Source of the DNA: Nakazawaea peltata
Taxonomy: Eukaryota; Ascomycota; Pichiomycetes; Alaninales; Pachysolenaceae
DNA length: 64,000 nucleotides
NCBI GenBank assembly: GCA_001599355.1
Contig: BCGQ01000006.1
Coordinates: 186,001-250,000, forward strand
Reading direction: 5' to 3'
Below the pieces are notes generated by a model that saw only the letters and a program-made list of their open reading frames with translations, had not been told where the DNA came from and searched no databases. Shown in pieces: positions 22,360 to 55,484 of this stretch. Each line of letters begins with the position of its first letter. The stretch's first letter is position 1. Position numbers and translations under genes: made by a program.

Positions 22360-23487
22360 TTATGCTGTAAGTCTTTGAACTTCCATGTCCAATTTCTTGA
22401 ACTTCTTCTCCAACTCAGCTAAATCTTTATTCAACTTTGCTCTTTCATCTTGTATATTCTTAGCCCATTGTTTGAATCTGTCTTCTTCATTCTTAACTTG
22501 TTCGGCAAAGTATTGCTTCAAAGCCTTCTCTTCTTCCAAGAACTTTGGATTAGTAGTTCTTCTCTCCAAAAGCATCGAGCTTCTCTTGTTATCATCGGAA
22601 TCTCCCTTGTCCAACTTAGCAGTTCTATAAGTCTCGTAATGTAATTCCTCAGTGGATAATACCAAATCTAACATATTAGTTCTCAATAACAAGGATCTCA
22701 ACTTTCTGAAATCACAATGTTGATCATTCTCAACTTCGACAATACCCCAAGGATATTTTCTACCTTTTACAAAGTTTCCTGGAGTGATTTCGACGTCATC
22801 TTCGGATCCAATAACGGCAAATGGCATACTCTCGATCAATTGTTTAGCGTGTTCGGAGGCAGCAGCATCATCGGTCTCAATTGGAGGAGAATATATACGG
22901 ATATCTTGCAGTTCAATGACGGCTCTTATTCTGTTCTTGAACTCCAACATTTCACTTGGAGCCAAGGTATCAGCCTTGGCAATGACTGGAACCAAATTAA
23001 CTCTAGAACCTAATCTCTTCATGACTTCAACATCCAATGGTTTCAAAGAATGACCTGTAGGTCTAATGAAGTACAAACAGACATGAACTCTCAAGTCACG
23101 TTTATGAGCTCTAGAAGGTTGTTGTTCTTGTCTCATGAAAGAGTCATGTTGGTCATCGATGAAATCGATAATTTGTTGCCATGAGTTTCTATTATTGACA
23201 TTATCACCAAAACCAGGGGTATCGATCACGTTCAATCTCAATTTAAAGTTCTTCTCCTCCAATTCGGCTCTGGTGATATCAATCTCAACAGTCTTACGAA
23301 CACCGTTCTTATGTCTTAAGGAATGGTCTCTCTGTTGCTTCAAAGTAGTCTGGAATAAAGTGTTAACAAATGTCGTCTTACCCAACCCGCTCTCTCCGGC
23401 TACCATGATGGTAAAATTAGCGCCGTTTTGAGATACAATCTTGTATCTTTGGTTAGGAAGGTTAGCAATACCGATTGGTTCGACCAT
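22360..23487 (-). CDS. CDC12: Septin CDC12
   Basis: A 375-aa septin, a GTP-binding filament protein of the bud-neck ring. It matches S. cerevisiae Cdc12 from the start: GIANLPNQRYKIVSQ, P-loop GESGLGKTTFVNTLFQ (about 30-45), IDTPGFGDNVNN (G3), the LRVHVCLYFIRPTGHSLKP stretch, AKADTL (G4), and RKYPWGIVEVEN with HCDFRKLRSLLLRTN. A C-terminal coiled coil (about 315-375) follows. ATG 23487 (MVEPIGIANL) is chosen, the frame continuing upstream only to a TTG. The CTG at residue 193 (VIE-CTG-QDIRIYSPP) falls on the Ala of the conserved VIEAQ.IRI motif. It is divergent from TRP4, sharing a 360-bp upstream region. Confidence 0.95.
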   Translation of the reverse strand: MVEPIGIANLPNQRYKIVSQNGANFTIMVAGESGLGKTTFVNTLFQTTLKQQRDHSLRHKNGVRKTVEIDITRAELEEKNFKLRLNVIDTPGFGDNVNNRNSWQQIIDFIDDQHDSFMRQEQQPSRAHKRDLRVHVCLYFIRPTGHSLKPLDVEVMKRLGSRVNLVPVIAKADTLAPSEMLEFKNRIRAVIELQDIRIYSPPIETDDAAASEHAKQLIESMPFAVIGSEDDVEITPGNFVKGRKYPWGIVEVENDQHCDFRKLRSLLLRTNMLDLVLSTEELHYETYRTAKLDKGDSDDNKRSSMLLERRTTNPKFLEEEKALKQYFAEQVKNEEDRFKQWAKNIQDERAKLNKDLAELEKKFKKLDMEVQRLTA

Positions 23488-23847
23488 TGTGATAGTATTG
23501 TAGATTATATCGATGCTCAAAATTCAAGGAAACAAGGAATATATATATGGATATTTATCAAGGATTAACCCTTTACCGCCATTAAATGATTTGTTTTGCT
23601 TTTTTTTTCTCTCTTTAAGGACAACAAGAGTAAAAAAATTACGCGTCTTACCCCTGTCGGTGGCTAATAACTTGCACCGCCTCAATATTTCCTATTTAGT
23701 TCCTTGTAAAAAAGGAGAAATTCAATTTTCAGATTGGGGATGAAATGGTCGTGTATCGTGTGCTAATTACCCAAAGGACAATCAACACTCAAGTGAAGGC
23801 AGATGAGTCAAGGTTGGTCAAGGTTGACGAGTAGACTCGAGATCATA
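23488..23847. other. Divergent promoter region CDC12 / TRP4
   Basis: A 360-bp AT-rich region with a long T run at about 23598. The upstream ATG at 23803 is in frame with TRP4 but the 15 residues it adds do not look like the family. GGTCGTGTATCGTGTG (about 23748) carries the TCGTGTAT motif that recurs downstream of TRP4. Confidence 0.35.
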
Positions 23848-24927
23848 ATGCTGACTGTTTTATCACCTTATATTAAGGCGCTTTTGTCGAAACCTCCAAC
23901 TCTTTCGACTGTTGAGTTGGGAGACCTGTTAAGGTTGATCGTTGAAGGTAAGGCATCTGAGATTCAAATTGGATCTTTCCTTACACTGTTAAGAGGATCT
24001 GGATTAGACCATGATCCTAAATATATTCTGGTTGCGGCTTCGACTTTCTTGGAATACAGTAAAGTGATCACTCCAGAAGCAGTTAATGGTAAAGGATACA
24101 TTGATATTGTGGGTACCGGTGGAGATGGACAGAACACTTTCAATGTCAGTACCTCTTCTGCCATTGTTGGTGCCGGAATGGGGTTGGATATTTGTAAGCA
24201 TGGAGGTAAGCTGGCTACTTCATCTTCTGGAGCTGGTGATTTGATGACTCATTTAGGTGTCGATTTGTTCAAAGTCACCGACAAGACTACACCTTCGATT
24301 GTTTCTTATACTAATTTCTGTTTCCTCTTTGCTCCAAGTTTCCATCCAGGAATGCGTGCTGTAGCTCCAGTTAGATCCGCATTGGGAATACCTACAATAT
24401 TCAATATTTTGGGGCCATTATTGAACCCAATGCCATTAAAGGCTAGAATTATTGGTGTCTACACCGAACTGTTGGGTCAAGTCTTTGCTGAGGCTGTTTT
24501 ACAGATGGATAAAATGAGAGGAAGAGGAATAGGTAACACTTTTATCGTTTGGGGTGAAGTTGGACTCGATGAAATCGCTCCTATTGGAAAGACTAAAGTC
24601 TGGAAAGTATCACCTGAGACAGGAGATATCACCCATTTCGAAATCCAACCTTCTGATTTCGGTTTAAAAGAACATTCCTTAGATTTGGTTAAGAGTGGAA
24701 CCCCTCTGGAAAATGCTGCTCTTCTTAAGAGAATATTAAGTGGAGAATTCTCAAAGGGAGACCCATTGTTGGATTATATTTTGATGAACAGTTCAGCTTT
24801 GGCAGTTGTTGGGGGTATTGCCAAAGATTGGAAGCATGGTGTCGAGTTGGCTGAACTGGCTATTTCTTCGGGTAAACTGTCGGAAGAATTGGCTAAATTT
24901 GTGGCCCGTGTAGATAAACTTGAATAG
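23848..24927 (+). CDS. TRP4: Anthranilate phosphoribosyltransferase (tryptophan synthesis)
   Basis: Catalyses transfer of the phosphoribosyl group from PRPP to anthranilate, the second step of the tryptophan branch. The 359-aa product from ATG 23848 shows the family landmarks: DIVGTGGDGQNTFNVSTSS (PRPP loop, about 85-105), CKHGGK, SSSGAGDLMTHLGV, FAPSFHPGMRAVAPVR, LGIPTIFNILGPLLNP and FIVWGEVGLDEIAPIGKTKV. The start at 23803 would add 15 residues (MSQGWSRLTSRLEII) with no counterpart. The CTG at residue 122 (HGGK-CTG-ATSSSGAGD) aligns with Ala in S. cerevisiae HGGKASTS. It is followed in tandem by SPC110, as in S. cerevisiae (YDR354W, YDR356W). Confidence 0.94.
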   Translation: MLTVLSPYIKALLSKPPTLSTVELGDLLRLIVEGKASEIQIGSFLTLLRGSGLDHDPKYILVAASTFLEYSKVITPEAVNGKGYIDIVGTGGDGQNTFNVSTSSAIVGAGMGLDICKHGGKLATSSSGAGDLMTHLGVDLFKVTDKTTPSIVSYTNFCFLFAPSFHPGMRAVAPVRSALGIPTIFNILGPLLNPMPLKARIIGVYTELLGQVFAEAVLQMDKMRGRGIGNTFIVWGEVGLDEIAPIGKTKVWKVSPETGDITHFEIQPSDFGLKEHSLDLVKSGTPLENAALLKRILSGEFSKGDPLLDYILMNSSALAVVGGIAKDWKHGVELAELAISSGKLSEELAKFVARVDKLE

Positions 24928-25171
24928 TCGTGTATGATTTACAATTTATAGAATACAGTACTTGTGAAAGGTCGTGTACATCTAAAATTTCACTAGTTGT
25001 CACTTGTTAGTGAGCGAAAAGTCGTGTATATCCAAAAAATAACCATGCTTTGTGTGTTTCGTATTCTGCTCGTGTATCCCTCTGTGTAAACATAAAAAAT
25101 AAACAAACTTCGCGTTATTTCTAATGATTTGATCATAAAGATTGAAGTCAATTTACACCATAGGCGCTGCC
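24928..25171. repeat. TRP4 3' flank with dispersed TCGTGTAT motifs
   Basis: AGTCGTGTATGA (at the stop), GGTCGTGTACAT (about 24970), AGTCGTGTATAT (about 25019) and GCTCGTGTATCC (about 25069) are four copies of one 8-9 nt core in 150 bp between TRP4 and SPC110. Confidence 0.6.
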
Positions 25172-28108
25172 ATGTTCGGAGCTGGAAGACTCATAGGAAC
25201 GCCTCAGGGTGATAAACGCGACAAAAATGACGAAATGGAATTCACTCCAGTAGGTGAGGAACTCTCTCATATCTCATCTATTAGAGAAGACAATAATTTA
25301 ACGCCAGTGAGACGTAAAATATGGGACCGCCAGTCTATATCGTTGACTCCATTGGCTGCTGACAATACTTTTGACAATACTTCGCATAGCTTTGATACAA
25401 TCGACTCTGAATCTCGTCAACTGCATTGGAATCCTGATCCTAATTTCCTCAATGAGTTGAGACAGAATGATCTGTTCAAGGCTGGATCTCTGACCATGAG
25501 GGATGAACATTTGTTAGTTGGCTCTAATGGTAGTAATGCTTTGAAGCAACAACATGATAATTATGCCAAATTACAGGAAGAAAATATCAACTTGAAGGTG
25601 AGATTACTGGCCTTGACTAGGTATTTTGGTAATGAACCTCAGGACACCAGAGAGTTGGTGGATCATAATATTGAGTTGAAACAAAGTTTACTTCAAATGA
25701 ATGGTAAATTGGAGAATTTGAATGCGTATATAAAGGAATTAGAGCAATCACAGAATGAATATGAAAGGTTACTGAGATTTGAGGGAGAAAGAGAGGCTCT
25801 TCAGAAAGAAAATCGACAATTAAAGAGTGAATTTGAGTCGACACTTCAACGTCTTCGTAATTATGAGAATCATTGTCTGGAATTGGAGTCTCAGATTGAA
25901 TCTTTGAATTCTCAGAAGGAATCTTTGAGCTCTCAGAAGGAATCTTTACATGGGAAAATTGAGGAATTGAACGAGAAAATCGAAGAATTGAATGATCGTG
26001 ACCTCAATATTCACACTTATCAACCACAAACTCAAAAATATGTAGAAGAGATCCGTGATTTAGAAGGTGAAATTTCCGATTTACAAATGTTATTACGTCA
26101 AAAAGACGATCAAATTCTCGATATCAAAGAAGAGTTGACTCACTTGAAAAACGATAACGAGCAATTGAAGGATGAAGTTGATGAATTGAAGCATGCTCTG
26201 AGCTCAGTAGACTTACAGGGAGAACTCGAGAGAGCTAGAGAACAACTGAAAGCTAATAAAGAGTTAGAAGAAGAGATTCATGATTTAAGACATAAATTAA
26301 AGAGTCTCAATCATTCTTCTGAGCAGACTGATATTTATAAAGCTAATCTGGATTCTTTAGATAGAGAAAATCATGAGTTGAGGGGTGAAGTGAATCTGTT
26401 GACCAATGAACTTGAAGACCTGAAATCCAAAATATCACAATTACAACATGGAGAAGAAGGATTAATCGAAGAACTTGAAAGAACAGAGAATAATTTACAT
26501 GAAATCAGAGCAGCTTTGTCGGATGAGAAATCTAGAAACAGGATATTGGAACAAAGATTGGAGCAAATTCGTAATGAACGTAGTCAAAATGATGATGAAT
26601 TAATTCGCTCCATTGAACAAGAGAGAGAAAGGTTGTATGATCAAGTATTGCATAGCCAAGATAAGATTTCTCACTTGGAAAAGCAATTGAGGGATACCAC
26701 TGCTCAGCTCAAAGACCTGTCTAGAAGACATGATAGTGCTGATAGTGGAATCATCAAGTTGAGACAACATAATGACGAGTTGCAAGATCATATTCAAAGG
26801 TTAGAACGTAATTTGAGAAGCAAGGATGAAGAACTTCAAAGTGCTTTGGCTTCCAAGAGTGAGCCTGTAAAATCAGTAAATCCATATTTAGAAGAAGAGA
26901 TTAAGAGACTCTCTGCTAAGAATAATGAATTACAACATGTTGTGAACTCGATGAAATTCACTGATGATGGGAAACTCGATGATCTTGTCCGGAACAATAA
27001 CACTTTGAAGAGAGACATTAATGAGAAGGATAGAGAAATTGAGAAATTGACTTCAAAGATTCATGATTTGTCCAGACAAAGTAAAATGACATTGATTAAT
27101 GAGGATGATGAGAAATTATCAATGATGCAAGAAATCAGTAAATTGAAATCTAAATTGAACTTGTTGAATATCGAGAAAGAGAATTTGAAAGAGGAATATT
27201 CTTTGAAATTATCGATTGTCAAGAAGAAGTTACAGAAAGACTTCTCTTCTGGGTCATTAGTTGATGAGATGGAATATAAATTGAATAAGTCCATCAAATT
27301 GAAGGATGAATTGTTGTTGAAGTTGACTCAGAAACAACATGATTATGAGGAGGTTTTACTGCGTAATGATAAGTTAAGTAAAGATAATCGTGAATTGGAG
27401 CATATCATGTTTGCTTTAGAGGAGACCGAGTCGAGATTGACGAGGGAAAATAAACAATACTCCAGAGATGTTCTGAAATTGAGACAAACATGTCAAAAAT
27501 TGGTACTGAAATTGAAATCTGGCACAGAATCTAATGATTCTAATTTGAAGATTCAATTGACAAATGCTAATGAAGAGATAGATATTTTGACTCAAAAGTA
27601 TATTAAGTTACGGTCTGATCTCACTGCGAAGATCGATAATTTGGAAAATTCAAAACAGAAATTGAAATCTAAGTTGTTGGAAGTGGCAGAGTCTAACGAG
27701 AAGTTGCAAAGCCAAAGACAACTGTATCCAACACCATCAGCATCTCCTAAATTATCTAGTTCCGATCAACAGTTACGTGATGCGGAATTGAAGTTGATCA
27801 AACTGAAATATTTGGAACAACAAGAAGTTATCCACGACTTACAAGTTTATAATGTGATTTTGAATAAGAGTTTACTGAACTCGAATCAAATGCTGAAACA
27901 AAATATCCTCTCAGTTGAAGAAGCCATGGGAGTATTGTCACTTGGTCATTCCAAACAGCCTATTCGGAAACTCACATTTAGGGCATTAGCCAAGTTTGTC
28001 CTTCTGGGGGTGCGCATCAAAAATAGGCTGCAACAGAGAGAAAGGGATCAGATTTATATCAATGGGTTGAAGAAACAAATAAGAATGGAGAGGTTAGCTC
28101 TTATATGA
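25172..28108 (+). CDS. SPC110: Spindle pole body protein SPC110 (pericentrin/Pcp1-like)
   Basis: A 978-aa coiled-coil protein linking the nuclear face of the spindle pole body to gamma-tubulin complexes. ATG 25172 (MFGAGRLIG); only a TTG lies further upstream. The N-terminus contains MEFTPVG, also present in S. cerevisiae Spc110, and a basic TPVRRK patch. At about residues 130-180 is a CM1-type gamma-tubulin-complex-binding motif (LQEENINLKVRLLALTRYFG, then ELVDHNIELKQSL). Residues 190-900 are almost entirely heptad-rich coiled coil. The end (about 930-978), RKLTFRALAKFVLLGVRIKN plus basic residues, resembles the calmodulin-binding PACT region. Order TRP4-SPC110 in tandem matches S. cerevisiae. 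Rapid divergence is usual in this family, so domain order and synteny carry the call. Confidence 0.85.
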   Translation: MFGAGRLIGTPQGDKRDKNDEMEFTPVGEELSHISSIREDNNLTPVRRKIWDRQSISLTPLAADNTFDNTSHSFDTIDSESRQLHWNPDPNFLNELRQNDLFKAGSLTMRDEHLLVGSNGSNALKQQHDNYAKLQEENINLKVRLLALTRYFGNEPQDTRELVDHNIELKQSLLQMNGKLENLNAYIKELEQSQNEYERLLRFEGEREALQKENRQLKSEFESTLQRLRNYENHCLELESQIESLNSQKESLSSQKESLHGKIEELNEKIEELNDRDLNIHTYQPQTQKYVEEIRDLEGEISDLQMLLRQKDDQILDIKEELTHLKNDNEQLKDEVDELKHALSSVDLQGELERAREQLKANKELEEEIHDLRHKLKSLNHSSEQTDIYKANLDSLDRENHELRGEVNLLTNELEDLKSKISQLQHGEEGLIEELERTENNLHEIRAALSDEKSRNRILEQRLEQIRNERSQNDDELIRSIEQERERLYDQVLHSQDKISHLEKQLRDTTAQLKDLSRRHDSADSGIIKLRQHNDELQDHIQRLERNLRSKDEELQSALASKSEPVKSVNPYLEEEIKRLSAKNNELQHVVNSMKFTDDGKLDDLVRNNNTLKRDINEKDREIEKLTSKIHDLSRQSKMTLINEDDEKLSMMQEISKLKSKLNLLNIEKENLKEEYSLKLSIVKKKLQKDFSSGSLVDEMEYKLNKSIKLKDELLLKLTQKQHDYEEVLLRNDKLSKDNRELEHIMFALEETESRLTRENKQYSRDVLKLRQTCQKLVLKLKSGTESNDSNLKIQLTNANEEIDILTQKYIKLRSDLTAKIDNLENSKQKLKSKLLEVAESNEKLQSQRQLYPTPSASPKLSSSDQQLRDAELKLIKLKYLEQQEVIHDLQVYNVILNKSLLNSNQMLKQNILSVEEAMGVLSLGHSKQPIRKLTFRALAKFVLLGVRIKNRLQQRERDQIYINGLKKQIRMERLALI

Positions 28109-29085
28109 TGAGGGGTAAGAATACTATTGGGGGGGGTTATGATGAATGGGGGTTGGCTAAATAACAATTGAGATTAGATCTCGTTGGTGTATATTAATTT
28201 GTATAATAGATAATTGAAGGATTATTAATGTTCGAGTAGATGCTAGAGTTGGGTTACAGTCTTCACCTTATTCTTTCTACTTCGTCCCCTCTTTGACCCC
28301 TCTTTCACCCCTCCTTAATTATAAGTTAAATAACTTATTTATTAGGAAAATCTAAATGAAAGAGTAGAGATTTAGTCTCTGATTACTATGAGAGGGAGAT
28401 TTAGAGACGATATTCTTAAGGGTTGAGAGATTTATACAGGTTGCATTGGGTAATTCCGTCATGCTTCCATGATGTCTAACATCTTCCCATGGCCATCCAT
28501 CCATGGTGGTCATCTCGGTTCTACCCCCATTCCACCCCCAATTCTATCATTTCTTGCTATGAAATTACTAATATTCACCCGCGCCGCCTCCCACGCTATG
28601 TGCGCGATAAAGATCAGAGGCAAAGAGGCGAAGGATTACAAATGAGGAGGGTAAAGGAGGGGACTCGGAAACAATAGGAACAACAGATATTATCCGTAAA
28701 TTCTACGTACCATTACACTGTACCAACGAAGTTCTCTACTTGTAAAAACCGGTACCGAAAATGATCTACACTACCGATGGGAGAGAGCCTCAGTTTGCCT
28801 CCCGAAATAGCTTTTCGCTTGAGTTTCGGACAATTTTTAAGGTGTTAAAGGGGGGCTACAAAAACAATTAGATGAAGAGCTTTATTACTAATACTGAATG
28901 AGCATCACATCGATCTCGGGTGAGTCAATATCGACAATATCTCACATCCATAGACACTATAAATGTAGACAGTATGATAGACCCGTAAAAGATGGGGAAA
29001 ATTTTTGTAGGGGCAAAAATTTTTTCCTCTTGTGCCTTCGAAATCAATGGACGAGTTTAGGCTGATGACAATTATTTGAATACAC
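28109..29085. other. Intergenic between convergent SPC110 and UBC4
   Basis: About 980 bp. A G run (GGGGGGGG near 28126), a CCATGGCCATCCATCCATGG near-palindrome (about 28485-28504), and paired GAAAATTTTTG/CAAAAATTTTTT elements (about 28998-29025). The ORF at 28489-28677 has no family features. No RNA gene recognised. Confidence 0.3.
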
Positions 29086-32016
<2,931 letters not shown>

Positions 32017-37148: not shown

Positions 37149-38474
37149 ATGTCAAGCTCAGATTTCACAGAGAAAGGAATCCTGTTAGTGAAGAAGGCCA
37201 TTGAAGCCGATAGCGCCTCCCGTTACGAAGAGGCCTACAAATTGTACTTTAATGCATTGGATTATTTGATGTTGGGGATCAAATATGAGAAGAATCCTAA
37301 TACTAAACTGATGCTCCGGTCGAGATTCACCGATTATTTGACTAGAGCCGAACAGTTGAAAGAACATCTTGAGAAGCAGAAACTGGCTAGTCTGGATCTG
37401 ACCCCAGGAAATGGAGGAGGCGCTAACGCTCTGAAGACTAACGGCACTGGTGCTGGTGGTAACGGCGACGATGATGATGCCGAAACTAAACGTTTGCGTG
37501 GAGCTTTGAGTGGATCGATCGTTTCCGAGAAACCTAATGTCAAATGGGAGGATATCGCCGGTTTAGAAGGAGCCAAGGAAGCTTTAAAAGAGGCTGTCAT
37601 TTTACCTGTCAAATTTCCCCATTTATTCACGGGGAAGAGAAAGCCAACGGCTGGAATTTTATTATATGGACCTCCTGGTACTGGTAAGTCTTATTTGGCC
37701 AAGGCAGTCGCCACTGAGGCCAATTCCACCTTCTTCTCCGTTTCTTCGTCTGATTTAGTATCGAAATGGCAAGGTGAGTCCGAAAGATTGGTGAAGCAAC
37801 TTTTCAATATGGCTAGAGAGAATAGACCTTCTATTATTTTCATCGATGAGATCGATGCTATTTGTTCGGCTAGAGGTTCAGAAGATTCGGAATCTTCTCG
37901 TAGAATCAAAACTGAGATTTTAGTCCAGATGCAAGGTGTAGGAAATGATGCTCAAGGTGTCTTAGTATTAGGAGCCACCAATTTACCATGGAATATCGAT
38001 AGTGCCGTCAGAAGAAGATTCGAAAAGAGAATTTATATACCATTACCTGAATTGGAGGCAAGAAAAGAGTTGTTCACGTTGAATATCGGTACGACTCCAT
38101 GCTCATTACAACAAAGTGACTTGAAAGTATTGGCCGAGATGACCGATGGGTATTCTGGATCGGATGTTGCCGTTGCCGTTAGAGAAGCGTTAATGCAGCC
38201 TATTAGAAAGATCCAAAGTGCTACTCATTTCAAGAAGGTTGAGTGTACTGCAGAAGATGGTTCTACTAAAGTTAAATATACACCTTGTTCTCCCGGAGAT
38301 CCTGAACTGGAGGAGATTAATTGGATGAATCTTGAAAGTGATGAGTTACAAGAACCGGAATTGACGTTGAAAGATTTCATTAAGCTGGTGAAATCAACAA
38401 GACCAACAGTCAATCAAGATGATATACAGAAACAGATCGATTTTACCAATGATTTTGGACAAGAGGGAGGTTAG
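37149..38474 (+). CDS. VPS4: ESCRT-III disassembly AAA ATPase VPS4
   Basis: A 441-aa AAA ATPase that recycles ESCRT-III in multivesicular-body sorting. N-terminal MIT domain (about 1-80; [20 protein letters not shown]), a Gly/Asp-rich linker, then the AAA core: [20 protein letters not shown], Walker [16 protein letters not shown] (about 174), [15 protein letters not shown], Walker [11 protein letters not shown] (about 230), sensor [20 protein letters not shown] with the arginine fingers, the beta domain, and C-terminal helix ending [10 protein letters not shown]. The CTG at residue 413 ([16 protein letters not shown]) aligns with Ala in S. cerevisiae ([14 protein letters not shown]). BRO1, another ESCRT-pathway protein, lies 18 kb downstream. 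Confidence 0.97.
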
Positions 38475-45025: not shown

Positions 45026-45656
45026 GGATGAATAGAGTGATGAGTGTAGGAGAGAGTGTAGGAGAAATGTAGGAGAAGAGAGTGTAAGAGGAGAGAGTGA
45101 ACTGAGAATAGGGGTAAGAGAGAAGAGTAGTAGAGTAGTAGAGTAGTGGATGGGTAGAATAGTAGTGGAGGAGTAGGATAGTAGTGGAGCAGTTGAATAG
45201 TGGAGTGGAGTAGTAGAGTGGGGTGGGCGGTAGGGAATAGTATGGGTGAGTAGTAGAGCAACAGATGACTCAATTGATAGCCAGTACCACAATATCCCCA
45301 ACATACCTCCAGCTTCTTCCTCTAATAGTCTCCAGCAACCCCCAGTATCCTCCACAGCCAAACCCCTGGGTACCTGGAGGTACCTGGAGGTGCCTGGTGG
45401 TACCCCCTTTATCCCTAACTGCTCAGCTCTCCCAGCCTCTACGCGTCATCCAGAAGTACCAAATTTACCCTACTTTCTCCTCCCTCCCATACTTTCCCCC
45501 TCAGTAAATCTCATCCCCAAGAAAATTTTTAAATCGAAAATTTTGAGGAAAAAAATTTTCCTGTGAAAAAAAAAGGATCAACGAGGCAAAAAGAGACACC
45601 AAGAAGACCAAGAATTGAGTAGGCGGGAGACGTTAAATCATCTTAAACAGTGCAGA
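45026..45656. repeat. EMC10 3' flank repeats and NIP1 promoter with RRPE-like elements
   Basis: After the EMC10 stop, GAGTGTAGGAGA-type units repeat (45035-45100), then AGTAGTAGAGTAGT-type units (45127-45225). A repeat of GGTACCTGGAGGTGCC type lies at 45367-45404. Just upstream of NIP1 are three A/T elements GAAAATTTTT, CGAAAATTTTGAGG and AAAAAAATTTTCC (45521-45561), similar to the RRPE box of ribosome-biogenesis and translation genes. Confidence 0.5.
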
Positions 45657-48245
45657 ATGTCTCGTTTCTTTGCAAGCAGAGCAGTCGGATCCGATTCGGA
45701 CTCTGAATACTCGTCAAGCGACGAAGAATTATTAAGTTCATCCGAGGAAGAATTATTATCATCATCTGAAAGTGAAGAAGAAGTTGTCGGTGGCGATGAT
45801 GATGATGAAGAGGAGGATGACGACTCCATTTTCGGTTCAGATGAAGATGAAGATTCCTCTGATGATGACGATGCGCCAAGAGGTGCCTCCTACTTCTTGA
45901 AGAAATCCGCAATCAAAGACTCAGATGATGAAAGTGACGACGAAGGAAGAAAAGTAGTCAAGAGTGCTAAGGACAAGATATTGGAAGACATAGAAAATGG
46001 AATAGCAGCTATTGAGAATTACACTCAGATGAACAGTTGGGCCTCGATTTTGACCGAGTTTGAGAGTTTGAATAAAGTTTTACCAAAGGCTCTTAAGCAA
46101 AAGATTTCCATTCCTGTTAGTTATATCAAGGTACTTTCCGAGTTGGACGAGTCTATCCAAGAGCAAGATAAGGATGCCTCTACTAAGAAACAAATGAATG
46201 CTTCTACTGCTAAGGCATTCAACACTTTGAAACAAAGAGTTAAGAAACAGAGCAGAGAATTCCAAAGTAAAATCGACCTGTACCGTGCTAATCCTACCGA
46301 ATTTGGATCGAAACAAGACGAGACTGAACAACCAGAGATTTCATTGTTGAGCAATGCTCCAAGAAGCAAAGCTGCTCCAGCTTCAGCTAATTCTGTCTTC
46401 ATTTTCGACACCTTACGTTCGATTCAAGAGTCTCGTGGTAAGAAGAACGTTGATAAGAATGAGCAAATCAAGTCTACTGAGGAGCTTTTGGAGCTTACTG
46501 AGCTGCCATTCGAATTGATCTCCATATATTTGAACTTGATCCCACTGAAATTCGATCTCTATTCAAACGCATCTTACATGGCAGTTGAGCAATGGACTGG
46601 AGTGTACGATGATATCGCTGCATTGTTGAAGACTTTGGAAGAGAATGGATCTTATCGTGTATTGGAGACTGCTCATAGCACAGATGATGTTTCTATCGAG
46701 CCAGAAGCCAATGCTCAAGGTATTAAAGAGATCCAAGGTTCTGTTCCTTCCCTTGTAGAAAGATTAGACGATGAGTTGATCAAGTCTTTACAAATTATTG
46801 ATCCTCATTCTACCGAATATCTTGAAAGATTGAAGGCCGAGACCAAGATTTACGAGCTTATTGTAAGATGTCAATTGTACTGTGAGTCGGCTATTGCAAA
46901 GGAACAATATTCTCAAGTTGCCGGTGAACAATTGGCCAGAATTATCTTAAGAAGAGTCGATCACATTTACTATAAACCAACTAAATTGATTATCACAACA
47001 GAGAATACCACTTGGAACAGTTTGGCTCCTAAGAATTCTTCGATTTATGGTAAATACGATGGGAAATCCGACCAGCATGAATATTCCAACAACTTATTGG
47101 ACTCATTATGTTCGGTTCTTTATACTCAATCGAATTCTACATTCCGTAAGAAGGCCATGTTATGTCATATTTATTACTATGCTTTCAACGATGAGTTCTA
47201 CAAGGCACGTGATATGTTCTTGATGTCGCATTTGCAATCGACTATTGCAACCTCCGACCCAACTTTACAAGTATTATTCAACAGAGCTTTAGTTCAATTA
47301 GGATTATGTGCTTTCCGTTCAGGTTTAATCTCTGAATCTCAACAACTCTTGCAAGAGATTGCCACTTCTAGCAGATCTAAGGAACTTTTAGGACAAGTTG
47401 GCCAAAGATTCCAACAGCAACAATCTGTAGCCGATAGACAAAGATTATTGCCATTCCATATGCACATTAACTTGGAATTATTGGAGTGCTGTTTCTTGAC
47501 AGCTTCTTTATTATTAGAAGTTCCTCAAATTGCTGCCACTTCCAAGAATGAACAAAGACAATACAGTGGACAAAAGACTTTCAAGAGAGCTTTGGAATAC
47601 CATGACAGACTGTTCTTCCAAGGTCCACCTGAAAACACCAAAGAATATATCATGCATTCTGCTAAGGCTTTACAAAGAGGAGACTGGCAAAAGGCTGCCG
47701 AACTTTTATGTTCGATCAAGGTTTGGAATTTATTCAACAAGTCTGACGAGTTGAAGCAAATGTTGACTGCCCAATTGCAAGTCGAAGGTTTAAGAACTTA
47801 TTTGTTCTCTTTCAAAGCTCATTATGAAAAATTGTCCACCAGTCAATTGGCCAAGATTTTCGATCTTTCTGAGCAAAAAGTTAAATCGATCGTTGCCAAG
47901 ATGATTTTCGAAGAGGAAATCAGTGCCGCATTCGATCAAAAGAGCAATTCGATCAGTTTCATCCAAGGTGTCGAGCTGAGCAAATTACAAGAATTGGCCG
48001 TTACTCTTGCCGATAAGGTCAATCAATTAGCCGAGCGTAATGAGAGATTGGCTGCTGGAGGTCATCAATCTCATTCTTCTACGTTCCATTCTTCTCAGCA
48101 AGCCAATAACAATGGTACACAGCTGCATGGTAATAATCATAACATAAAATATGCACCAGTTACTGGGACTCAGAAGCCATCTGGGATTTCTGGAGGGGCA
48201 TTAAATGGTATGGATAGAAGAAGAAAGACAGTTGGAAGAAAGTGA
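45657..48245 (+). CDS. NIP1: Translation initiation factor eIF3 subunit c (NIP1)
   Basis: An 862-aa core subunit of eIF3, needed for preinitiation-complex assembly and start-site choice through contacts with eIF1 and eIF5. ATG 45657 (MSRFFASRAVGSDSDSEYS); only a TTG lies upstream. The acidic, Ser-rich N-terminus (SSSDEELLSSSEEELLSSSE) is the eIF1/eIF5-binding region. GRKVVKSAKDKILEDI, VERLDDELIKSL, IDPHSTEYLERL, HIYYKPTKL and QGPPENTKEYIMHSAKALQ match the family along its length, and a PCI domain occupies about 690-800 (FSFKAHYEKLSTSQLAKIFD). The basic tail MDRRRKTVGRK ends it. In-frame CTG codons are few; two sit where I would expect Leu or Ile, so they do not help the code inference. Confidence 0.95.
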   Translation: MSRFFASRAVGSDSDSEYSSSDEELLSSSEEELLSSSESEEEVVGGDDDDEEEDDDSIFGSDEDEDSSDDDDAPRGASYFLKKSAIKDSDDESDDEGRKVVKSAKDKILEDIENGIAAIENYTQMNSWASILTEFESLNKVLPKALKQKISIPVSYIKVLSELDESIQEQDKDASTKKQMNASTAKAFNTLKQRVKKQSREFQSKIDLYRANPTEFGSKQDETEQPEISLLSNAPRSKAAPASANSVFIFDTLRSIQESRGKKNVDKNEQIKSTEELLELTELPFELISIYLNLIPLKFDLYSNASYMAVEQWTGVYDDIAALLKTLEENGSYRVLETAHSTDDVSIEPEANAQGIKEIQGSVPSLVERLDDELIKSLQIIDPHSTEYLERLKAETKIYELIVRCQLYCESAIAKEQYSQVAGEQLARIILRRVDHIYYKPTKLIITTENTTWNSLAPKNSSIYGKYDGKSDQHEYSNNLLDSLCSVLYTQSNSTFRKKAMLCHIYYYAFNDEFYKARDMFLMSHLQSTIATSDPTLQVLFNRALVQLGLCAFRSGLISESQQLLQEIATSSRSKELLGQVGQRFQQQQSVADRQRLLPFHMHINLELLECCFLTASLLLEVPQIAATSKNEQRQYSGQKTFKRALEYHDRLFFQGPPENTKEYIMHSAKALQRGDWQKAAELLCSIKVWNLFNKSDELKQMLTAQLQVEGLRTYLFSFKAHYEKLSTSQLAKIFDLSEQKVKSIVAKMIFEEEISAAFDQKSNSISFIQGVELSKLQELAVTLADKVNQLAERNERLAAGGHQSHSSTFHSSQQANNNGTQLHGNNHNIKYAPVTGTQKPSGISGGALNGMDRRRKTVGRK

Positions 48246-48760
48246 TTTTAATAAATGTTAAGAATATGAAGTGTAGTAGTAGGGAAGTATGTTAAGTTAG
48301 TGTGTAGTAATTGGTAGAGTAAGTTACTGTTGTGTATAGTGAGCTATAGTAGGCTATAGTAGTATATAGTGCAGTATATAGTGAACTATGGTAGTGTATA
48401 GTGAGCTACTATAGTAGGCTATAGTCTACACTTGGTAGATTATCTACAGTACTCTACAGTAGTCGACAGTACTGTAGAGTGCTCTATAGTTTTAGCTTAA
48501 CGAATTGGAGAAGATGGAAATTGGAGAAGATTGATGGATGGAGAAGTTTGTTGGAGAAGTTTGCTGGAGAAGTTTGGAGAAATTTTTAGTGGAGAACTTT
48601 AAAAAATTCCGCCATTTGGAGAAAATCCATAGCAAAGAAAAACTTAAAATGACCCAATTTTATCTCAATTTTAACTAAAATTTGACCCAATTTTGAGGTT
48701 ATTCAAATAACCAAAGTCAGACCATACGATCTACAACTCGGTCAATTCGAGTTCAAATCA
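48246..48760. repeat. NIP1 3' flank with degenerate TATAGTAG/TATAGTGAG tandem repeats; ZRG8 promoter
   Basis: From about 48270 to 48490 the sequence is a degenerate array of GTATAGTGAGCTATAGTAGG and ACAGTACTCTACAGTAG units. From 48510 a second repeat GGAGAAGTTTG occurs four to five times (48510-48580). The ZRG8 start follows at 48761. Confidence 0.7.
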
Positions 48761-50941
48761 ATGAAATCACTCATAAAGACTCATAAAAAGTCTTCTTCCA
48801 ATGTTTCTGACCATGATACTTGGTCTCAACCGTCCACTCCAGTGCTACCTCAAGGCATCTCATTGAAACAAAAGACTCCAGTCTCATCTCCTGGACCTAC
48901 GAACCAATCTGCATTTCGGACATCTCCATTACCACATCCACCACCTGCTCCATTCTCACTAGGAGCGAGAGCGCTGCTAGACTCAAACCATTCACAAACA
49001 GCTGATCATCATGCCCATCAACAAGCACCAGAATCTCCTAATGGTAAACGGTCGCGTCTCAAAGGTCTTTTGAAACCGAAAAGTTCCAAGACATCGTTGA
49101 ATTCACTCTCTAAACCAAGTTCCCCAGTGGTGACAACCACCAAAAGTTTTGTCACTTTTGCTGACCCTTACAGTAATAGTACTAATCCCCAGTCAGAGTT
49201 TGTGGTACTAAGAGGCCATCATTCGAGTAGTTCAACGAAATTGACGACCGAACAAACCACAATAACCAATAAAAATCCACTCATAGAGATCCCTGAATCC
49301 ACCAAACTGTCCATTTTTAACAATAATAACGACTCAATCATCACTACTCTCTCAACAAATGCATCAAAAGAAGAAATCCCATTGGAATCCAAGTTGAATT
49401 CTCAACGTTCAAGTGCTTCTGTACCTGTTATGGAAGGTAAATCTGTTCTATTTGGAATTGTCGAGTCAGGAACACTGAATTTATCGCAATATTCCTTCCA
49501 AAGTTCTCATCTAGCTGAGGAACAACGACTGGAATACAATGAAGGAGAAGAAAAAGGTGAGAAAAGTGACTCTGTAGATAGTGATACTCATAGTGATGTA
49601 GTCTCACACGATTCCCTGTTTTCTTTCGAAGCAAATACAACCTACGGTAGAAGTACTTCCATCAAATACTACAAAAGTAAAGGTGAGTCCAGTAAGAGAA
49701 TTATCAACAGGAAGTATATTGAGAACAATATTGGGGATGATGTCGATATTGAGGAATTAGAAGAGGATTGTAATTTTGTAGACTCGGATGTTGAAGACGA
49801 TACTCATGATCTTTTCAATAGGAAGCTTTTCTCCAGTGATGAGGAATTAGATGAAGAGATTGGGGATGAGATTGGGGGTGAGGAGACAGACCCGGAAAAT
49901 TACGAGAAACATCAGGACACCAAACAATTTCACCCGGAAATTTACGATGGACAGAACCGAGAATTGGATTCAAAGGTGAACGACTTTGGTGTGGGGAATG
50001 ACCAGGAGTACGATGAAGAGTATGAAGAAGAGTACGACGATGAGTACGACGACGAGGATGGCCACTCCATCAATGAGCCAAGTAAAGATATTATCCAAGT
50101 AGACAATATCTCACTAATAGATGAAGAGTTCGAAGATCTCGATGATGGGGCCATTCCTCCAGTTTCCACCACCTCTGCTACCGAAGAAGAAACTGAAGAC
50201 AACATCAATACCGTAGACCACATCAAAGATGATCAGTTATTAAACAATATCAACAAAAGAATGTCACATTTGACTGTCGATACTTCTCCAGACTCGTCTA
50301 CGAAACCTCGACTGAATATGAGCTCGTCTCAACGTGAAAAACTCGGGCTTAATATAAGATCTCGTTCGATCAAATATCATCAATTCTCAGGAAATAACGA
50401 AGACGACTTGAAATTCTTAAATAATCGTTACTCTTGGTATGTTCGTGATGAAGATTCCATGACTGCATCACCTTCAAGAACCGACCTGAAAGAAATGTAT
50501 CTTGATGGTTTAGGTGACGTGACACCTTCTAGTGATCAATTTGATGACTCTTTATTAGACGAAATCAACCAACTTCCCGAAGATTTCGATTTCGAGAATC
50601 CTTCCTATGCAGACTCAGGAAGGAGATTGACTAATTCTCAAAAATTAAAACAGTTCAGACAAAACGGTAATAGTGGACTAATGAGCGAGTCCCTGGTGAC
50701 AGGAACTCGATTCGATAATAAAGGAAAGACCGTAACCTTATTCCGTTCTCCATCTCAGGAAGGTAAGGTGGACCAGTCCACCAAGAATAACCGTTTAAGT
50801 CTTCAATGGGTAGACCAAAGTGATGACGACGAAGAATTCATCAGAAGACCACCTAATTTACCCCTCCAGCTGCATGATTCTCCACTAACAACTATAAGTG
50901 AAGGTTCCTACGATAGTTCGGGACTCTCTCCTAAATTTTAA
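48761..50941 (+). CDS. ZRG8: ZRG8-like cell-polarity/RAM-associated protein
   Basis: A 726-aa mostly disordered protein. Orthology rests on three points: the N-terminus MKSLIKTHKKSSSNVS matches the start of S. cerevisiae Zrg8 (MRSFIKAHKKSTS) as I recall it; the middle has a shared element STSIKYYKSK followed by an acidic stretch; and it is convergent with FIR1, as ZRG8 (YER033C) is with FIR1 (YER032W). Zrg8 is a zinc-regulated, poorly understood protein linked to Ssd1 and polarised growth. Visible features: a Pro-rich segment (LPHPPPAPF), basic KRSRLKGLLKPKSSK, and highly acidic DEEY repeats (about 405-430). No catalytic domain. Confidence 0.7.
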   Translation: MKSLIKTHKKSSSNVSDHDTWSQPSTPVLPQGISLKQKTPVSSPGPTNQSAFRTSPLPHPPPAPFSLGARALLDSNHSQTADHHAHQQAPESPNGKRSRLKGLLKPKSSKTSLNSLSKPSSPVVTTTKSFVTFADPYSNSTNPQSEFVVLRGHHSSSSTKLTTEQTTITNKNPLIEIPESTKLSIFNNNNDSIITTLSTNASKEEIPLESKLNSQRSSASVPVMEGKSVLFGIVESGTLNLSQYSFQSSHLAEEQRLEYNEGEEKGEKSDSVDSDTHSDVVSHDSLFSFEANTTYGRSTSIKYYKSKGESSKRIINRKYIENNIGDDVDIEELEEDCNFVDSDVEDDTHDLFNRKLFSSDEELDEEIGDEIGGEETDPENYEKHQDTKQFHPEIYDGQNRELDSKVNDFGVGNDQEYDEEYEEEYDDEYDDEDGHSINEPSKDIIQVDNISLIDEEFEDLDDGAIPPVSTTSATEEETEDNINTVDHIKDDQLLNNINKRMSHLTVDTSPDSSTKPRLNMSSSQREKLGLNIRSRSIKYHQFSGNNEDDLKFLNNRYSWYVRDEDSMTASPSRTDLKEMYLDGLGDVTPSSDQFDDSLLDEINQLPEDFDFENPSYADSGRRLTNSQKLKQFRQNGNSGLMSESLVTGTRFDNKGKTVTLFRSPSQEGKVDQSTKNNRLSLQWVDQSDDDEEFIRRPPNLPLQLHDSPLTTISEGSYDSSGLSPKF

Positions 50942-50952
50942 ATGCATTAATT

Positions 50953-53349
50953 TCAATATTTAATTGTAGAAAACCCCTCTGTACGAGATCTTCTGTGACT
51001 ATATATGTTATTGACTGATGTTTGAGGGAGTGGAGGGTAGTGATACTTGGCGTAATCACTCTCCAGAGCCTTTTCAAACACACTATCTAATCTCGGTTGT
51101 TGTATAGACGATTTCCTTTCACCTAAACTACCTACTTTTAAGTTTTGTTCGTCACCAACCATGAAACTGTCCGTAGAGATAGCACTGATTTGACTGGAAA
51201 TTCTTTGAGGAAGTGGTTTACGAGGAGGCAGTAAGCTTGGTCTTTGCCATTTCTTCGATCCTCCATGTTGATAAGTAGAATAAAGTCTTTCGAGAGATCC
51301 GAAATCCACCTTGATTGTTTGCTGTCTTTTAATGGAGTCATGGACTTCGAAATCGGAGGCATATTGGTCGATCAAATCTATTTCATCGTCTTCACCAGCT
51401 GGGTCTGAAACTGTAGGTGGTTTATTATTGATGCTTCTGTATGATCTGATGGAACCATTCTTCTTATTACGGATTACAGTGACTTCCTGAGTATCGTCGG
51501 TCAAATCAATAAGAACATTTTCATCTGGAGTGACCGATGTACCCACAGAAGAATTTGTTCTGGCCAAACTCATTTCTGATTCGTAACTGGATTGACTAGT
51601 TATTGGGGATACTTGTCTTCTCTGTGGTTTCCGGTTCTTCCTTGTAGCTTGACCATAAGACTGGATCGTCTGTGGAGCCTTGTCTCTAATGGAGGTTCTA
51701 TCTATTTGATCTTTTAAGTAGAAATTCAATTTGTCATTTACTTTCTGCAGTTCAATTGGGGGTAACGGCTTATTGGACAATTCAGGAATGACAATCTCAT
51801 GAACAGGAGGCTTTTGTGAGTAAATTTTTGGATTTTGATTCTCTTTCTGAGGAGACATATCCAATCCGTGCATATCAGATTTCAGTCTACTATGACTTTT
51901 TTGAGACACATTCATATTTGCAAATTGTTCAAGAATATTAGATTGAGACATGCTTCTGACATGGTTGTGTCTTCTTGGACTTTGAGTAAGTTTAGGTGGT
52001 GGGTGATTTCCAAAGTTTGAATTGATAATGTAGTCATCTTTTGTGGCTTTAGAAGGAGATCTTTCCTGGGAGACAGAAATTGGGGGTGATATTTGTTGAG
52101 GGGAGTGACTTGGAGCCTGATGATCTGGATTAGTCTGAGGATGGAATTGGACTGAATGTTGCATCTGAGCCTGATTTCTTTCCATAGGAGTATATTGCTG
52201 TGCTGGAGGTGGAAGTACTGGCAGAGGAGCCACTTCAATTTCTCCTTGATCGAAATCACTAAAAACGTCATCAGGATAAGGCAGAGATGAAACTGGGGGA
52301 AATACATAAGAATTTTGTTGTTGGGGTTGCAGGTAGTGCGCTGGGGGCTGCATTGAGTTCTGTCCGGGATACTGTTGCTGTTGTTGGTACTGCTGATATA
52401 ACGGCAGATGGTGTTGACTTTGGGCTGACATGTTGTCAGGAGCGACTGGATATGGCAGACGCATGTCAAACAGAGACTTCGATCTGGAATGACCCAGAGC
52501 TTCCTTACGTCTCTGAGGTGAACCTTCTCCAGAAGAATCAGTAAGAATCTCCATAGGAGCAACACTCTTCTTAAGTGCAGATTTTAATGGCTTCTTAGGT
52601 GACTCATTACTATTTGTATTCTTATTCTTTGATGAGGTAAAAGATTTAATCCTAGCGATTGGAGTCTGTTTCAATGGCGATCCTGGTCTTGGTTTCAGTT
52701 CAATATTCTTTGGTTTAGTAGGAGAAGCCTGAAGGTCGATTTCTCTGATATCTGAATCAGCACTGTCGACAGTGTGGATCATCTCATAATCATTTCCATT
52801 GAAAATCATCTCTCTTCCCAATTTTGAATCACCTGGAGCACTCTTCCTGGATAATTTAGGAGGTGAACGGATCACCAAAGGAACTGAAATCTTGAAGTTT
52901 TCTTTATCCTTGGGTTCAATAAATATCTTATGAGAATCTTGGAATGGTCCAGTTGCCATCTGTGGCATAGGGAACAAAATACTTCCAGCGCTCTTACTTC
53001 TAGAATGATGTCCTATTGAAGCAGGAAGTGACAAGGTACTAAGGTTCTTGCGATGGTTACCTAATGAACTCTCTGAATGATTTAATGCCAGATAGTATAT
53101 ACTACTATGATGAGAGTGTCTCTTTGGTGAACCTGTACTGATCAGGGAGAAGACGGAAGAATCTGAAGACTCCACCGAGTAAACCTCCGGTGCCATTGGA
53201 CCTTCAACAGTTGTAGCGCTTAACACTTCATTAGCTGGCAACGAGAACCTAACCTTAGAGTTCCGTTTCCTTTGATTTCTTATTCTTTCCAGCTTTCTCT
53301 TAGCTCCTTCATCCTTAAAAACAGGAGCCGGTGGTTGTAGGCTGTTCAT
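50953..53349 (-). CDS. FIR1: FIR1-like protein (septation / mRNA 3'-end related)
   Basis: A 798-aa disordered protein, called FIR1 mainly from its position: convergent with ZRG8, with 11 bp between the stops, as in S. cerevisiae. Visible features are a basic N-terminus (AKRKLERIRNQRKRNSKVRF), an IKISVPLVIRSPPKLSRK-type element (about 150-168), several SPxK/SPR motifs that could be Cdk sites, a Gln-rich stretch (about 315-345), and an acidic DLTDD/EDDEIDLIDQYASDFEVH segment (about 620-670) reminiscent of SUMO-interaction motifs. S. cerevisiae Fir1 is linked to the abscission checkpoint and to poly(A) factors. Sequence divergence is large, so the call is moderate. Confidence 0.6.
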   Translation of the reverse strand: MNSLQPPAPVFKDEGAKRKLERIRNQRKRNSKVRFSLPANEVLSATTVEGPMAPEVYSVESSDSSVFSLISTGSPKRHSHHSSIYYLALNHSESSLGNHRKNLSTLSLPASIGHHSRSKSAGSILFPMPQMATGPFQDSHKIFIEPKDKENFKISVPLVIRSPPKLSRKSAPGDSKLGREMIFNGNDYEMIHTVDSADSDIREIDLQASPTKPKNIELKPRPGSPLKQTPIARIKSFTSSKNKNTNSNESPKKPLKSALKKSVAPMEILTDSSGEGSPQRRKEALGHSRSKSLFDMRLPYPVAPDNMSAQSQHHLPLYQQYQQQQQYPGQNSMQPPAHYLQPQQQNSYVFPPVSSLPYPDDVFSDFDQGEIEVAPLPVLPPPAQQYTPMERNQAQMQHSVQFHPQTNPDHQAPSHSPQQISPPISVSQERSPSKATKDDYIINSNFGNHPPPKLTQSPRRHNHVRSMSQSNILEQFANMNVSQKSHSRLKSDMHGLDMSPQKENQNPKIYSQKPPVHEIVIPELSNKPLPPIELQKVNDKLNFYLKDQIDRTSIRDKAPQTIQSYGQATRKNRKPQRRQVSPITSQSSYESEMSLARTNSSVGTSVTPDENVLIDLTDDTQEVTVIRNKKNGSIRSYRSINNKPPTVSDPAGEDDEIDLIDQYASDFEVHDSIKRQQTIKVDFGSLERLYSTYQHGGSKKWQRPSLLPPRKPLPQRISSQISAISTDSFMVGDEQNLKVGSLGERKSSIQQPRLDSVFEKALESDYAKYHYPPLPQTSVNNIYSHRRSRTEGFSTIKY

Positions 53350-53738
53350 CTTGGAGGGGTTAGATATTTTGAATGGCTTAATTCGGCTTGGTTTTCAAAT
53401 TTATAAATGAATAATGAAGCTGAAATTCCCAAATCAGGTTTAATTGAATCCAGGTGTCAAATATTTTTAGAATCTTTCACTCGTTTAAACTAAGCACTCA
53501 TGCACCAGCTTTATTCAGGTCTCGACTACTATTGAGGTCTTAACAATGGAAGAATATTTACTTTTATCCCTTTTAGGAAACATTATTACCACGGCAGAAA
53601 AAGGGGATAAGTGAGCAGTTTACGAATGTTTAGATGTGTGGCTTTACCGCAACATCATAACACCAAAGAACCTCCTAGATATAAAGATATTTTCGCTTAA
53701 TTCTCTCTGATTGTAGATAAGGCAGGGTAAGATTAGAT
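53350..53738. other. Divergent promoter region FIR1 / Rab5-like gene
   Basis: 389 bp, AT-rich, no repeats or RNA genes recognised. Confidence 0.3.
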
Positions 53739-54473
53739 ATGGAGTCTCCTAGAATACGGAATAAACTTTCTAGATCACAGCTTGCACTGGCACTGCTGCA
53801 AGTACAACGTGAGAATAATTCATCAATGGTTGCAGATTTGAAGCTTGTGCTTCTAGGAGAGAGCGCTGTTGGGAAGAGTTCATTGGCTCAGAGATTCACT
53901 ACAGATTCGTTTGATGAAAGTAAAGAGAGTACTATTGGAGCCCTGTTTATTACGAAGAAATTTTACTTGGAATCATCTCCTGGAAGTGATGAAGATCTCA
54001 AGTTGATCAATTTCCAGATCTGGGATACCGCTGGTCAAGAAAGATACAAAAGCTTAACCCCAATGTATTATAGAAATGCCAATATACTGATTGTGGTATT
54101 TGATGTGACAGATGTTGAAAGTGCCCGCAAACTGGATAATTGGTACAATGAGTTAAAGTATACCAACACGTATGACCTTGAAAATTTGAAAATTTATGTG
54201 GTGGGGAACAAATGTGACCTTGTAGATGGAGTGCCCAAGCTGGATTTATTAAGAGGTATGCAATTTATAGGAAAAGAAACCGAAGTGCTATATACGAGTG
54301 CCAAGACTGGTGAGGGGATAAGTGAACTATTCGAGGAGATTATCCGAAACATAGACGACTCATTGTTTGTTAAAGTAGATGAGATAGATAAAGATTTGAA
54401 GAGGAAGAAATCAAGCATAATTGACCTTACAGACTTTAATAATACATTGAACGGGTCAGGTTGTAACTGCTGA
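53739..54473 (+). CDS. Rab5-like endosomal GTPase (YPT52/YPT10-related)
   Basis: A 244-aa small GTPase. The G motifs are complete: GESAVGKSS (about 40), STIGALF (switch I), WDTAGQERYKSLTPMYYRNAN (G3/switch II), GNKCDL (G4) and TSAKTGEG (G5). The C-terminus GSGCNC is a CxC geranylgeranylation motif. DSFDESKESTIGALF and QERYKSLTPMYYRNAN are closest to Rab5-type proteins, especially S. cerevisiae Ypt52, which acts in endosome fusion. The gene starts with about 30 extra residues (MESPRIRNKLSRS); an inner ATG (MVADLKLVLLGES) would give a normal Rab length, so the start is uncertain. The extra segment holds three CTG codons in five (A-CTG-A-CTG-CTG), which read as Ala-rich here. Part of the loop after G4 is shorter than in Ypt52. 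Confidence 0.8.
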   Translation: MESPRIRNKLSRSQLALALLQVQRENNSSMVADLKLVLLGESAVGKSSLAQRFTTDSFDESKESTIGALFITKKFYLESSPGSDEDLKLINFQIWDTAGQERYKSLTPMYYRNANILIVVFDVTDVESARKLDNWYNELKYTNTYDLENLKIYVVGNKCDLVDGVPKLDLLRGMQFIGKETEVLYTSAKTGEGISELFEEIIRNIDDSLFVKVDEIDKDLKRKKSSIIDLTDFNNTLNGSGCNC

Positions 54474-54504
54474 CCTAATAAATTAGCAGTTAGATCTATA
54501 TAGT

Positions 54505-55484
54505 TTAATCCTTGTAATGAATCTTTCTGAAGAAATCCATACATCCGGTGAAAACCACCAATAAGATACCACCTCCTGGGCCCAATCTTAAAACCTTTGG
54601 CAAGAAACCCTTGTATAAGGCACTGAAACCTTCTTCTCTGTAGACAGTTACTAAAGATGGGAAAGTCCACTTGTATTTGGTAGAACCAGCTTGTACTCTG
54701 GACTTGACGACATCGAATGGAGTGTTCAAAATAGTACCTACAGTACCACCGATACTTCCACTAATCAAATCGTTGATGGTCTTTCTAGTTGGAGTCTCAG
54801 CCTTTGGTAACAATTGTCTGACTTGGAAAATGATACCAAAGTAACCGGCATTCCATGCAATATGTCTCCACAATGTAGCTTCTAAACCTTTGTACATACC
54901 AAGGACACCATCAGTCTTAACAATGTTCTTGACAACGTCGATTGGACTCGAGAATTTCGAAGATCTGTCTTGGACTCTGATCTTGACCAACTCAAATGGA
55001 ACAACGACGAACAGCTCGGTAGCACCAGCAGTAGCACCAGTCAAGACGGCGACTGGTTGAGTCATTTGCTCTAATTTGAATAACTTCTTATAAACCTTAG
55101 TATATTCGTCATTAGCAGCAAATTTGGTGGCTCTCTTTGGCAGCTCCATCAAGATTGGAGCACTAATACCTTTATAAAGAGTCTTTGGACCCTCGTTTTT
55201 GACGATCTTAGCCAAACAATCCACAATACCACTGTACTCAGCATTAGCACCGGTACCAACTTGTAATTGAATTCTAGTCTTGACAACATCTAATGGGTAC
55301 ATCACAAGAATCTCAGAGACTCCGGCAACGGCCCCGGAAAGGAATTGGTATACGAAAGGTAAAGCTATATAGTGGGGAGAGGGGTTAGTAAAGGGGACGA
55401 AGAAAAAAAAATCAAGAACAATTTCCAAGCATTATCACTCTCCTGTCCTTCAAACTACCTTCACTTACGTCTAGTATCTGACAT
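54505..55484 (-). CDS. ODC2: Mitochondrial 2-oxodicarboxylate carrier (ODC1/ODC2), two exons
   Basis: A mitochondrial inner-membrane carrier exchanging 2-oxoadipate and 2-oxoglutarate. Exon 1 is 16 nt, 55469-55484 (MSDTR plus one base); the intron 55365-55468 (104 nt) has donor GTAAGT, branch site TACTAAC and TAG acceptor; exon 2 is 54505-55364. The spliced product is 291 aa, starting MSDTRPLPFVYQFLSGAVAG, close to S. cerevisiae Odc2 (KPLPFIYQFISGAVAG). Three mitochondrial-carrier repeats are present: YPLDVVKTR, VPFELVKIR, TPFDVVKSR. CTG codons at 55143 (ME-CTG-PKRATKF) and 55014 (TE-CTG-FVVVPFEL) both align with Ala in Odc2 (MEAPKRATKF, TEAAVIVPFEL). The unspliced ATG upstream in the intron is not the start. 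Confidence 0.93.
55365..55468 (-). other. Spliceosomal intron of the ODC gene
   Basis: 104 nt, GTAAGT donor, TACTAAC branch site, TATATAG acceptor. It leaves a 16-nt first coding exon. Confidence 0.93.

Follow-up and report, generated by a model that had tools for sequence, protein, structure and literature searches.

In a stretch of 64,000 nucleotides of Nakazawaea peltata (contig BCGQ01000006.1, positions 186,001 to 250,000, forward strand; hereafter the window), the codon CTG stands at positions where homologous proteins have alanine. The genome carries a transfer RNA (tRNA) gene with the anticodon CAG and alanine identity bases, and no second CAG tRNA was found in the searches made. We put the probability at about 0.97 that the window comes from the nuclear genome of a CUG-Ala clade yeast, in which CUG is read as alanine by a single CAG tRNA charged by alanyl-tRNA synthetase, the old leucine tRNA having been lost. 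The alanine code, which we take to be NCBI table 26, has been described before in this clade and probably also in this species. The original report on Pachysolen is said to date from 2016. A first-pass annotation of the window had proposed this code, that of Pachysolen, Nakazawaea and Peterozyma (table 26), and it is supported here by the profile test, the Pfam scores and the CAG tRNA. Passages of PMC5951914 place the same three genera in the alanine clade and describe mass spectrometry covering 18 species in all. In an excerpt of PMC6692504 N. peltata is in the CUG-Ala clade, an excerpt of PMC8178436 gives Pachysolen and Nakazawaea as CUG-Ala, and one of PMC11540330 counts CTG as alanine for Alaninales, the order to which NCBI taxonomy assigns N. 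peltata.

The profile test used three window proteins, TRP4, BRO1 and ALD5. Each was aligned with its best 120 homologues, CTG being written as X, and every codon was scored against all 20 residues. The queries of the homologue search had been translated with table 26, which introduces a slight bias. When all homologues were kept, 30 of the 32 CTG sites could be used (two were poorly aligned), and alanine scored 30.2 bits against -3.9 for serine. As a control, 53 of the 58 codons in this run pointed to their standard residue. The codons that did not were CTG, GTG (13 sites), CGT (4), AGG (3) and CGA (1); apart from CTG, the standard residue came out for all 37 codons that had 14 sites or more. 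In a stricter run six sequences, three from Pachysolen tannophilus and three further close ones, were removed because their own CUGs may be misread. At the 29 sites then used, alanine scored +30.4 bits, serine +2.3 and leucine -37.5. Alanine was the best residue in 1995 of 2000 bootstrap replicates of the stricter run (lysine in 4, serine in 1), and the mixture weights at CTG were 0.83 for alanine, 0.16 for lysine and 0.01 for arginine. Ten CTG columns in that run had a single residue at a frequency of at least 70%, which was alanine in nine and lysine in one. The alanine signal at CTG far exceeds that of every other residue. Enrichment of leucine or serine at conserved CTG sites, which the first-pass annotation had said would speak against its proposal, was not seen in the profile test.

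The nine CTG codons on which the first-pass annotation had built its case are all in frame, with the coordinates and sequence contexts it had given (Table 1). Homologues bore out alanine at residues 35 and 96 of UBC4, 193 of CDC12, 413 of VPS4, 137 of TRP4, and 271 and 309 of ALD5. At the CDC12 site the second PDB chain shown, septin-7, has glutamate. The two sites in the ODC carrier could be compared in PDB with distant carriers only; read by eye, the two chains shown have phenylalanine or methionine at the first site and leucine or valine at the second. Yeast Odc1 presumably has alanine at both. The best-matching PDB chains of UBC4, ALD5, VPS4, TRP4, CDC12 and NIP1, with ODC left out, were also counted from alignments read by eye, that of the VPS4 linker being partly weak. 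They aligned with 30 of 32 CTG sites and had alanine at 14, serine at three, leucine at one and other residues at 12 (lysine four, glutamate three, and valine, proline, aspartate, glycine and isoleucine one each).

Pfam scores were compared under tables 1 (CTG as leucine), 12 (serine) and 26 (alanine). The scans covered 17 window proteins and nine from other contigs; one window protein (59980-61608) matched no Pfam family, so that 25 proteins were compared, and three more window proteins scored with table 26 alone stand outside the tally. The nine proteins from elsewhere were chosen by eye, as likely to bear known domains, from 100 open reading frames (ORFs), some of them repeated because loci overlap; the loci had been drawn from the tRNA and pattern searches. 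For each protein, one set of families without overlaps was summed by hand, and overlapping families were left out. Gene names are our own assignments, based on Pfam families, the titles of PDB entries and general knowledge. Alanine led leucine by 98.8 bits among the window proteins and by 59.9 bits among the others, about 159 bits over the 25 proteins; it was higher in 23 of them and tied in two. Over serine its lead was 24.8 bits in the window and 22.6 elsewhere, about 47 bits in all, with alanine higher in 17 proteins, lower in four and tied in four. Scores of six window proteins are given in Table 1; those of the ODC carrier were 209.5 (leucine), 211.7 (serine) and 211.9 bits (alanine).

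Table 1. Window proteins scored with Pfam and CTG codons named in the first-pass annotation (positions counted from the first base of the window; Pfam scores in bits, with CTG read as Leu, Ser or Ala)
Feature	Position	Strand	CTG codons	Result
SEC6	14035..16290	+	12	Leu 386.7, Ser 398.2, Ala 394.0
ALD5-like aldehyde dehydrogenase	19107..20678	+	6	Leu 595.7, Ser 597.1, Ala 601.3
TRP4 (anthranilate phosphoribosyltransferase)	23803..24927	+	9	Leu 293.3, Ser 303.5, Ala 312.7, two domains summed
VPS4	37149..38474	+	8	Leu 358.2, Ser 368.6, Ala 371.4, four domains summed
NIP1 (eIF3c)	45657..48245	+	6	Leu 524.2, Ser 529.9, Ala 529.3
BRO1	56117..58441	+	17	Leu 430.5, Ser 440.2, Ala 446.6, two domains summed
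CTG, ALD5 residue 271	19917..19919	+		in frame; weighted Ala frequency 0.86, 120 homologues
CTG, ALD5 residue 309	20031..20033	+		in frame; weighted frequency Ala 0.70, Thr 0.28, 120 homologues
CTG, CDC12 residue 193	22909..22911	-		in frame; Ala in best PDB chain (named CDC12)
CTG, TRP4 residue 137	24211..24213	+		in frame; weighted Ala frequency 0.99, 120 homologues
CTG, UBC4 residue 96	29242..29244	-		in frame; Ala in 3 of 3 PDB chains shown
CTG, UBC4 residue 35	29425..29427	-		in frame; Ala in 3 of 3 PDB chains shown
CTG, VPS4 residue 413	38385..38387	+		in frame; Ala in 5 of 5 PDB chains shown
CTG, ODC carrier, second site	55012..55014	-		in frame
CTG, ODC carrier, first site	55141..55143	-		in frame

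One tRNA with the anticodon CAG was found in the genome. It lies outside the window, on contig C4 (81426-81498), and a search of the whole genome with it returned no match besides itself. The first-pass annotation had suggested looking for a CAG tRNA of alanine identity, and this gene answers to that description. It has 73 bases with G1:C72, G2:C71, G3:U70, C4:G69 and A73, a five-base variable loop in place of a long arm, and G37, and a run of T follows the gene. ARAGORN labels it as leucine, from the anticodon alone. G3:U70 is the main identity element of alanine tRNAs. According to a passage of PMC5951914, alanyl-tRNA synthetase and seryl-tRNA synthetase need no particular anticodon bases. 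Because of this, and because the tRNA has G3:U70 and A73, alanyl-tRNA synthetase would be expected to charge it with alanine. CUG in messenger RNA would then be decoded by this single-copy tRNA, the ancestral leucine tRNA with CAG would have been lost, and tRNA-Leu(AAG) and tRNA-Leu(UAG) would insert leucine at the other CUN codons.

Two A-box patterns recovered the same 16 tRNA genes of leucine or serine type. The leucine-type genes have the anticodons CAA (five, one of them through an intron read by eye), UAA (two), UAG (one) and AAG (one), and the seven serine-type genes have AGA (three), GCT (two), CGA (one) and TGA (one). None of the 16 has CAG, though the patterns might miss a divergent gene; a CAG tRNA of leucine or serine identity, with none of alanine identity beside it, had been named in the first-pass annotation as a finding that would contradict alanine. 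An Rfam scan scored 63 of 608 candidates, the CAG tRNA itself not being among the 63, and a looser CAG pattern matched 210 places, about the first 100 of which were listed. The only tRNA-Leu(UAG) gene found (L045:1489-1696, about C4:804530-804718) has a predicted intron of 120 bases, which is long for a tRNA. A gene that ARAGORN reported as an intron-bearing Val(CAC) tRNA (L071:1494-1599, C7:154352) was rejected as such, since by eye it is a leucine-type Leu(CAA) tRNA with an intron. With the patterns used, the whole genome gave five matches to tRNA-Val(AAC), one to tRNA-Val(UAC) and none to tRNA-Val(CAC); Val(UAC) may therefore be the tRNA that reads GTG. tRNA-Val(CAC) had been considered as a parent of the CAG tRNA, and three candidate places, L093, L100 and L101, showed no tRNA.

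Several observations weigh against reading CUG as alanine. The first-pass annotation had described CTG sites in NIP1 as leucine- or isoleucine-like, and these exceptions are real: the best eIF3c chain has lysine, lysine, serine, leucine and isoleucine at five of the six sites. CTG sites 295, 418 and 429 of BRO1 stand in columns of valine, isoleucine and leucine. Serine scored slightly above alanine with Pfam in SEC6 (by 4.2 bits, the strongest such preference among the 25 proteins), IKS1 (0.8), NIP1 (0.6) and ZTA1 (0.3). A reference-free test, which compared the proximity of CTG to GCN, leucine and serine codons with 60 shuffles, left alanine and leucine unseparated, with z of 1.2 for alanine, 1.8 for leucine and -3.8 for serine; among its controls three of the four GCN codons clustered (z of 3.7, 5.1 and 5.8; GCC 1.3), and leucine codons did not. 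Since the tRNA genes were counted with patterns and with the 63 of 608 candidates that Rfam scored, a very divergent second CAG tRNA could have been missed. Finally, the nearest named homologues of ALD5 are from Cyberlindnera (78%) and Wickerhamomyces, with P. tannophilus lower at 72%. On the favourable side, P. tannophilus is the best named homologue of the other two profile proteins, at 66% for TRP4 and 44% for BRO1, with one nearer sequence in each case (75% and 63%).

The NIP1 and BRO1 sites are what favours leucine as the meaning of CUG, with the alanine matches arising by chance. We regard this as practically negligible, because leucine was strongly disfavoured in the profile test and lay below alanine in all scored proteins except the two ties, and no leucine-type CAG tRNA was found. 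Serine, the meaning of CUG in the Ser1 (Candida) and Ser2 (Saccharomycopsis, Ascoidea) yeasts, is chemically like alanine and has the four proteins just named on its side. It is still highly improbable. Serine fell about 28 bits below alanine in the profile test, its deficit over the 25 Pfam-scored proteins points the same way, the serine-type genes found have other anticodons, and the CAG tRNA lacks a long variable arm.

Another rival reading is that the assembly is contaminated or mixed, so that the window and the tRNA come from different organisms. No point in favour of this was seen, and it is very improbable. Alanine scored over leucine in the window, which lies on contig C6, as well as in proteins from C3, C4, C5, C9 and C10, one of them on the very locus of the CAG tRNA (L044, on C4); the single C2 protein gave a tie. 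The assembly, 11.63 Mb in 11 contigs, fits one yeast genome.

The anticodon loop of the CAG tRNA, TTCAGGT, is one base from the TTTAGGT of tRNA-Leu(UAG). By eye, its G37 is shared with the leucine tRNAs of this genome, whereas the alanine and Val(UAC) tRNAs have A37. G37 may serve merely for reading codons with C as the first base. It is thinkable, if unlikely, that CUG is mainly alanine with a measurable share of leucine, which would be inserted through mischarging of the G37-bearing tRNA or through wobble of tRNA-Leu(UAG), a tRNA that exists in the genome. In Candida albicans, according to a passage of PMC5951914, about 3% leucylation of tRNA-Ser(CAG) is attributed to G37. The mixture estimate gave leucine no weight at CTG, though it would be blind to a few per cent.

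Among the tRNAs fetched, the nearest to the CAG tRNA is Val(UAC), with 52 of 73 bases identical against 49 of 73 for Ala(AGC); outside the anticodon loop the counts are 49 and 46 of 66. The parts of the molecule differ in their likeness. Counted together with base 73, the acceptor stem is slightly closer to alanine (11 of 15, against 9 of 15 for valine), as are the T arm (14 against 12 of 17) and the variable loop (5 against 4 of 5). The D arm agrees with Val(UAC), Gln(UUG) and Gln(CUG) at 15 of 16 bases and with alanine at 10 of 16, and the anticodon stem with valine at 7 of 10 and with alanine at 3 of 10. A U6:U67 mismatch, considered as a tie to Val(UAC), was dropped because the alanine tRNAs of the genome have it too. 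In a passage of PMC5951914 the CAG tRNAs arose by anticodon mutation of tRNA-Ser or tRNA-Ala. Similarity counts over 73 bases of one genome are too few to decide on the published tRNA-Ala origin. It is possible, though unlikely, that the CAG tRNA is no simple anticodon mutant of tRNA-Ala: a valine- or glutamine-like body, for example, may have been remodelled by acquiring the acceptor stem of an alanine tRNA and an anticodon loop of leucine type, and its G37 may let a few per cent of leucine in at CUG. Given the mixed make-up of the tRNA, comparison across members of the clade could settle where the alanine tRNA came from.

CTG is a common codon here. It makes up 272 of 15,447 codons including stops (17.6 per 1000) in the 31 ORFs of the window and 934 of 47,560 (19.6 per 1000) when ORFs of other loci are added, 101 in all. 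Counting it as alanine lowers leucine from 11.26% to 9.29% of residues and raises alanine from 4.87% to 6.83%; if CTG is alanine, it provides about 29% of alanine codons (934 CTG against 2314 GCN). Under the standard code, proteins predicted from this genome would then be wrong at about 2% of residues, and about 29% of its alanines would be miscalled as leucine. The result confirms a sense-codon reassignment already in print, in a yeast whose reassigned codon is frequent and turns up even where alanine is conserved. This frequency sets the genome apart from the known CUG-Ala code of P. tannophilus, Nakazawaea and Peterozyma, since, in a passage of PMC5951914, the code-changing clades are said to use CUG relatively rarely. 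A further difference is that the CAG tRNA matches the genome's alanine tRNAs over its full length no better than Val(UAC). The likenesses are CUG at conserved alanine positions and a CAG tRNA with alanine identity bases, with no leucine- or serine-type CAG tRNA found here. The Ser1 and Ser2 yeasts likewise reassigned this codon through a new CAG tRNA; here the residue is alanine, the variable arm is short, and no serine-type CAG tRNA was found. With the standard code of the Leu1 and Leu2 yeasts the genome shares leucine tRNAs for other CUN codons (AAG, UAG), and it differs in that no leucine-type CAG tRNA was found and conserved CTG sites are not leucine.

CTG also occurs in runs, with six consecutive codons at codon 159 of an ORF at L012 and four at codon 343 of one at L035. 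In the window, a 950-residue protein (1512-4364, minus strand) with long serine-aspartate and ATPAK repeats contains 31 CTG codons. A gene fragment at L019:2-1141, which has a tRNA_SAD domain (PF07973) and nine CTG codons, is probably from the gene of alanyl-tRNA synthetase.

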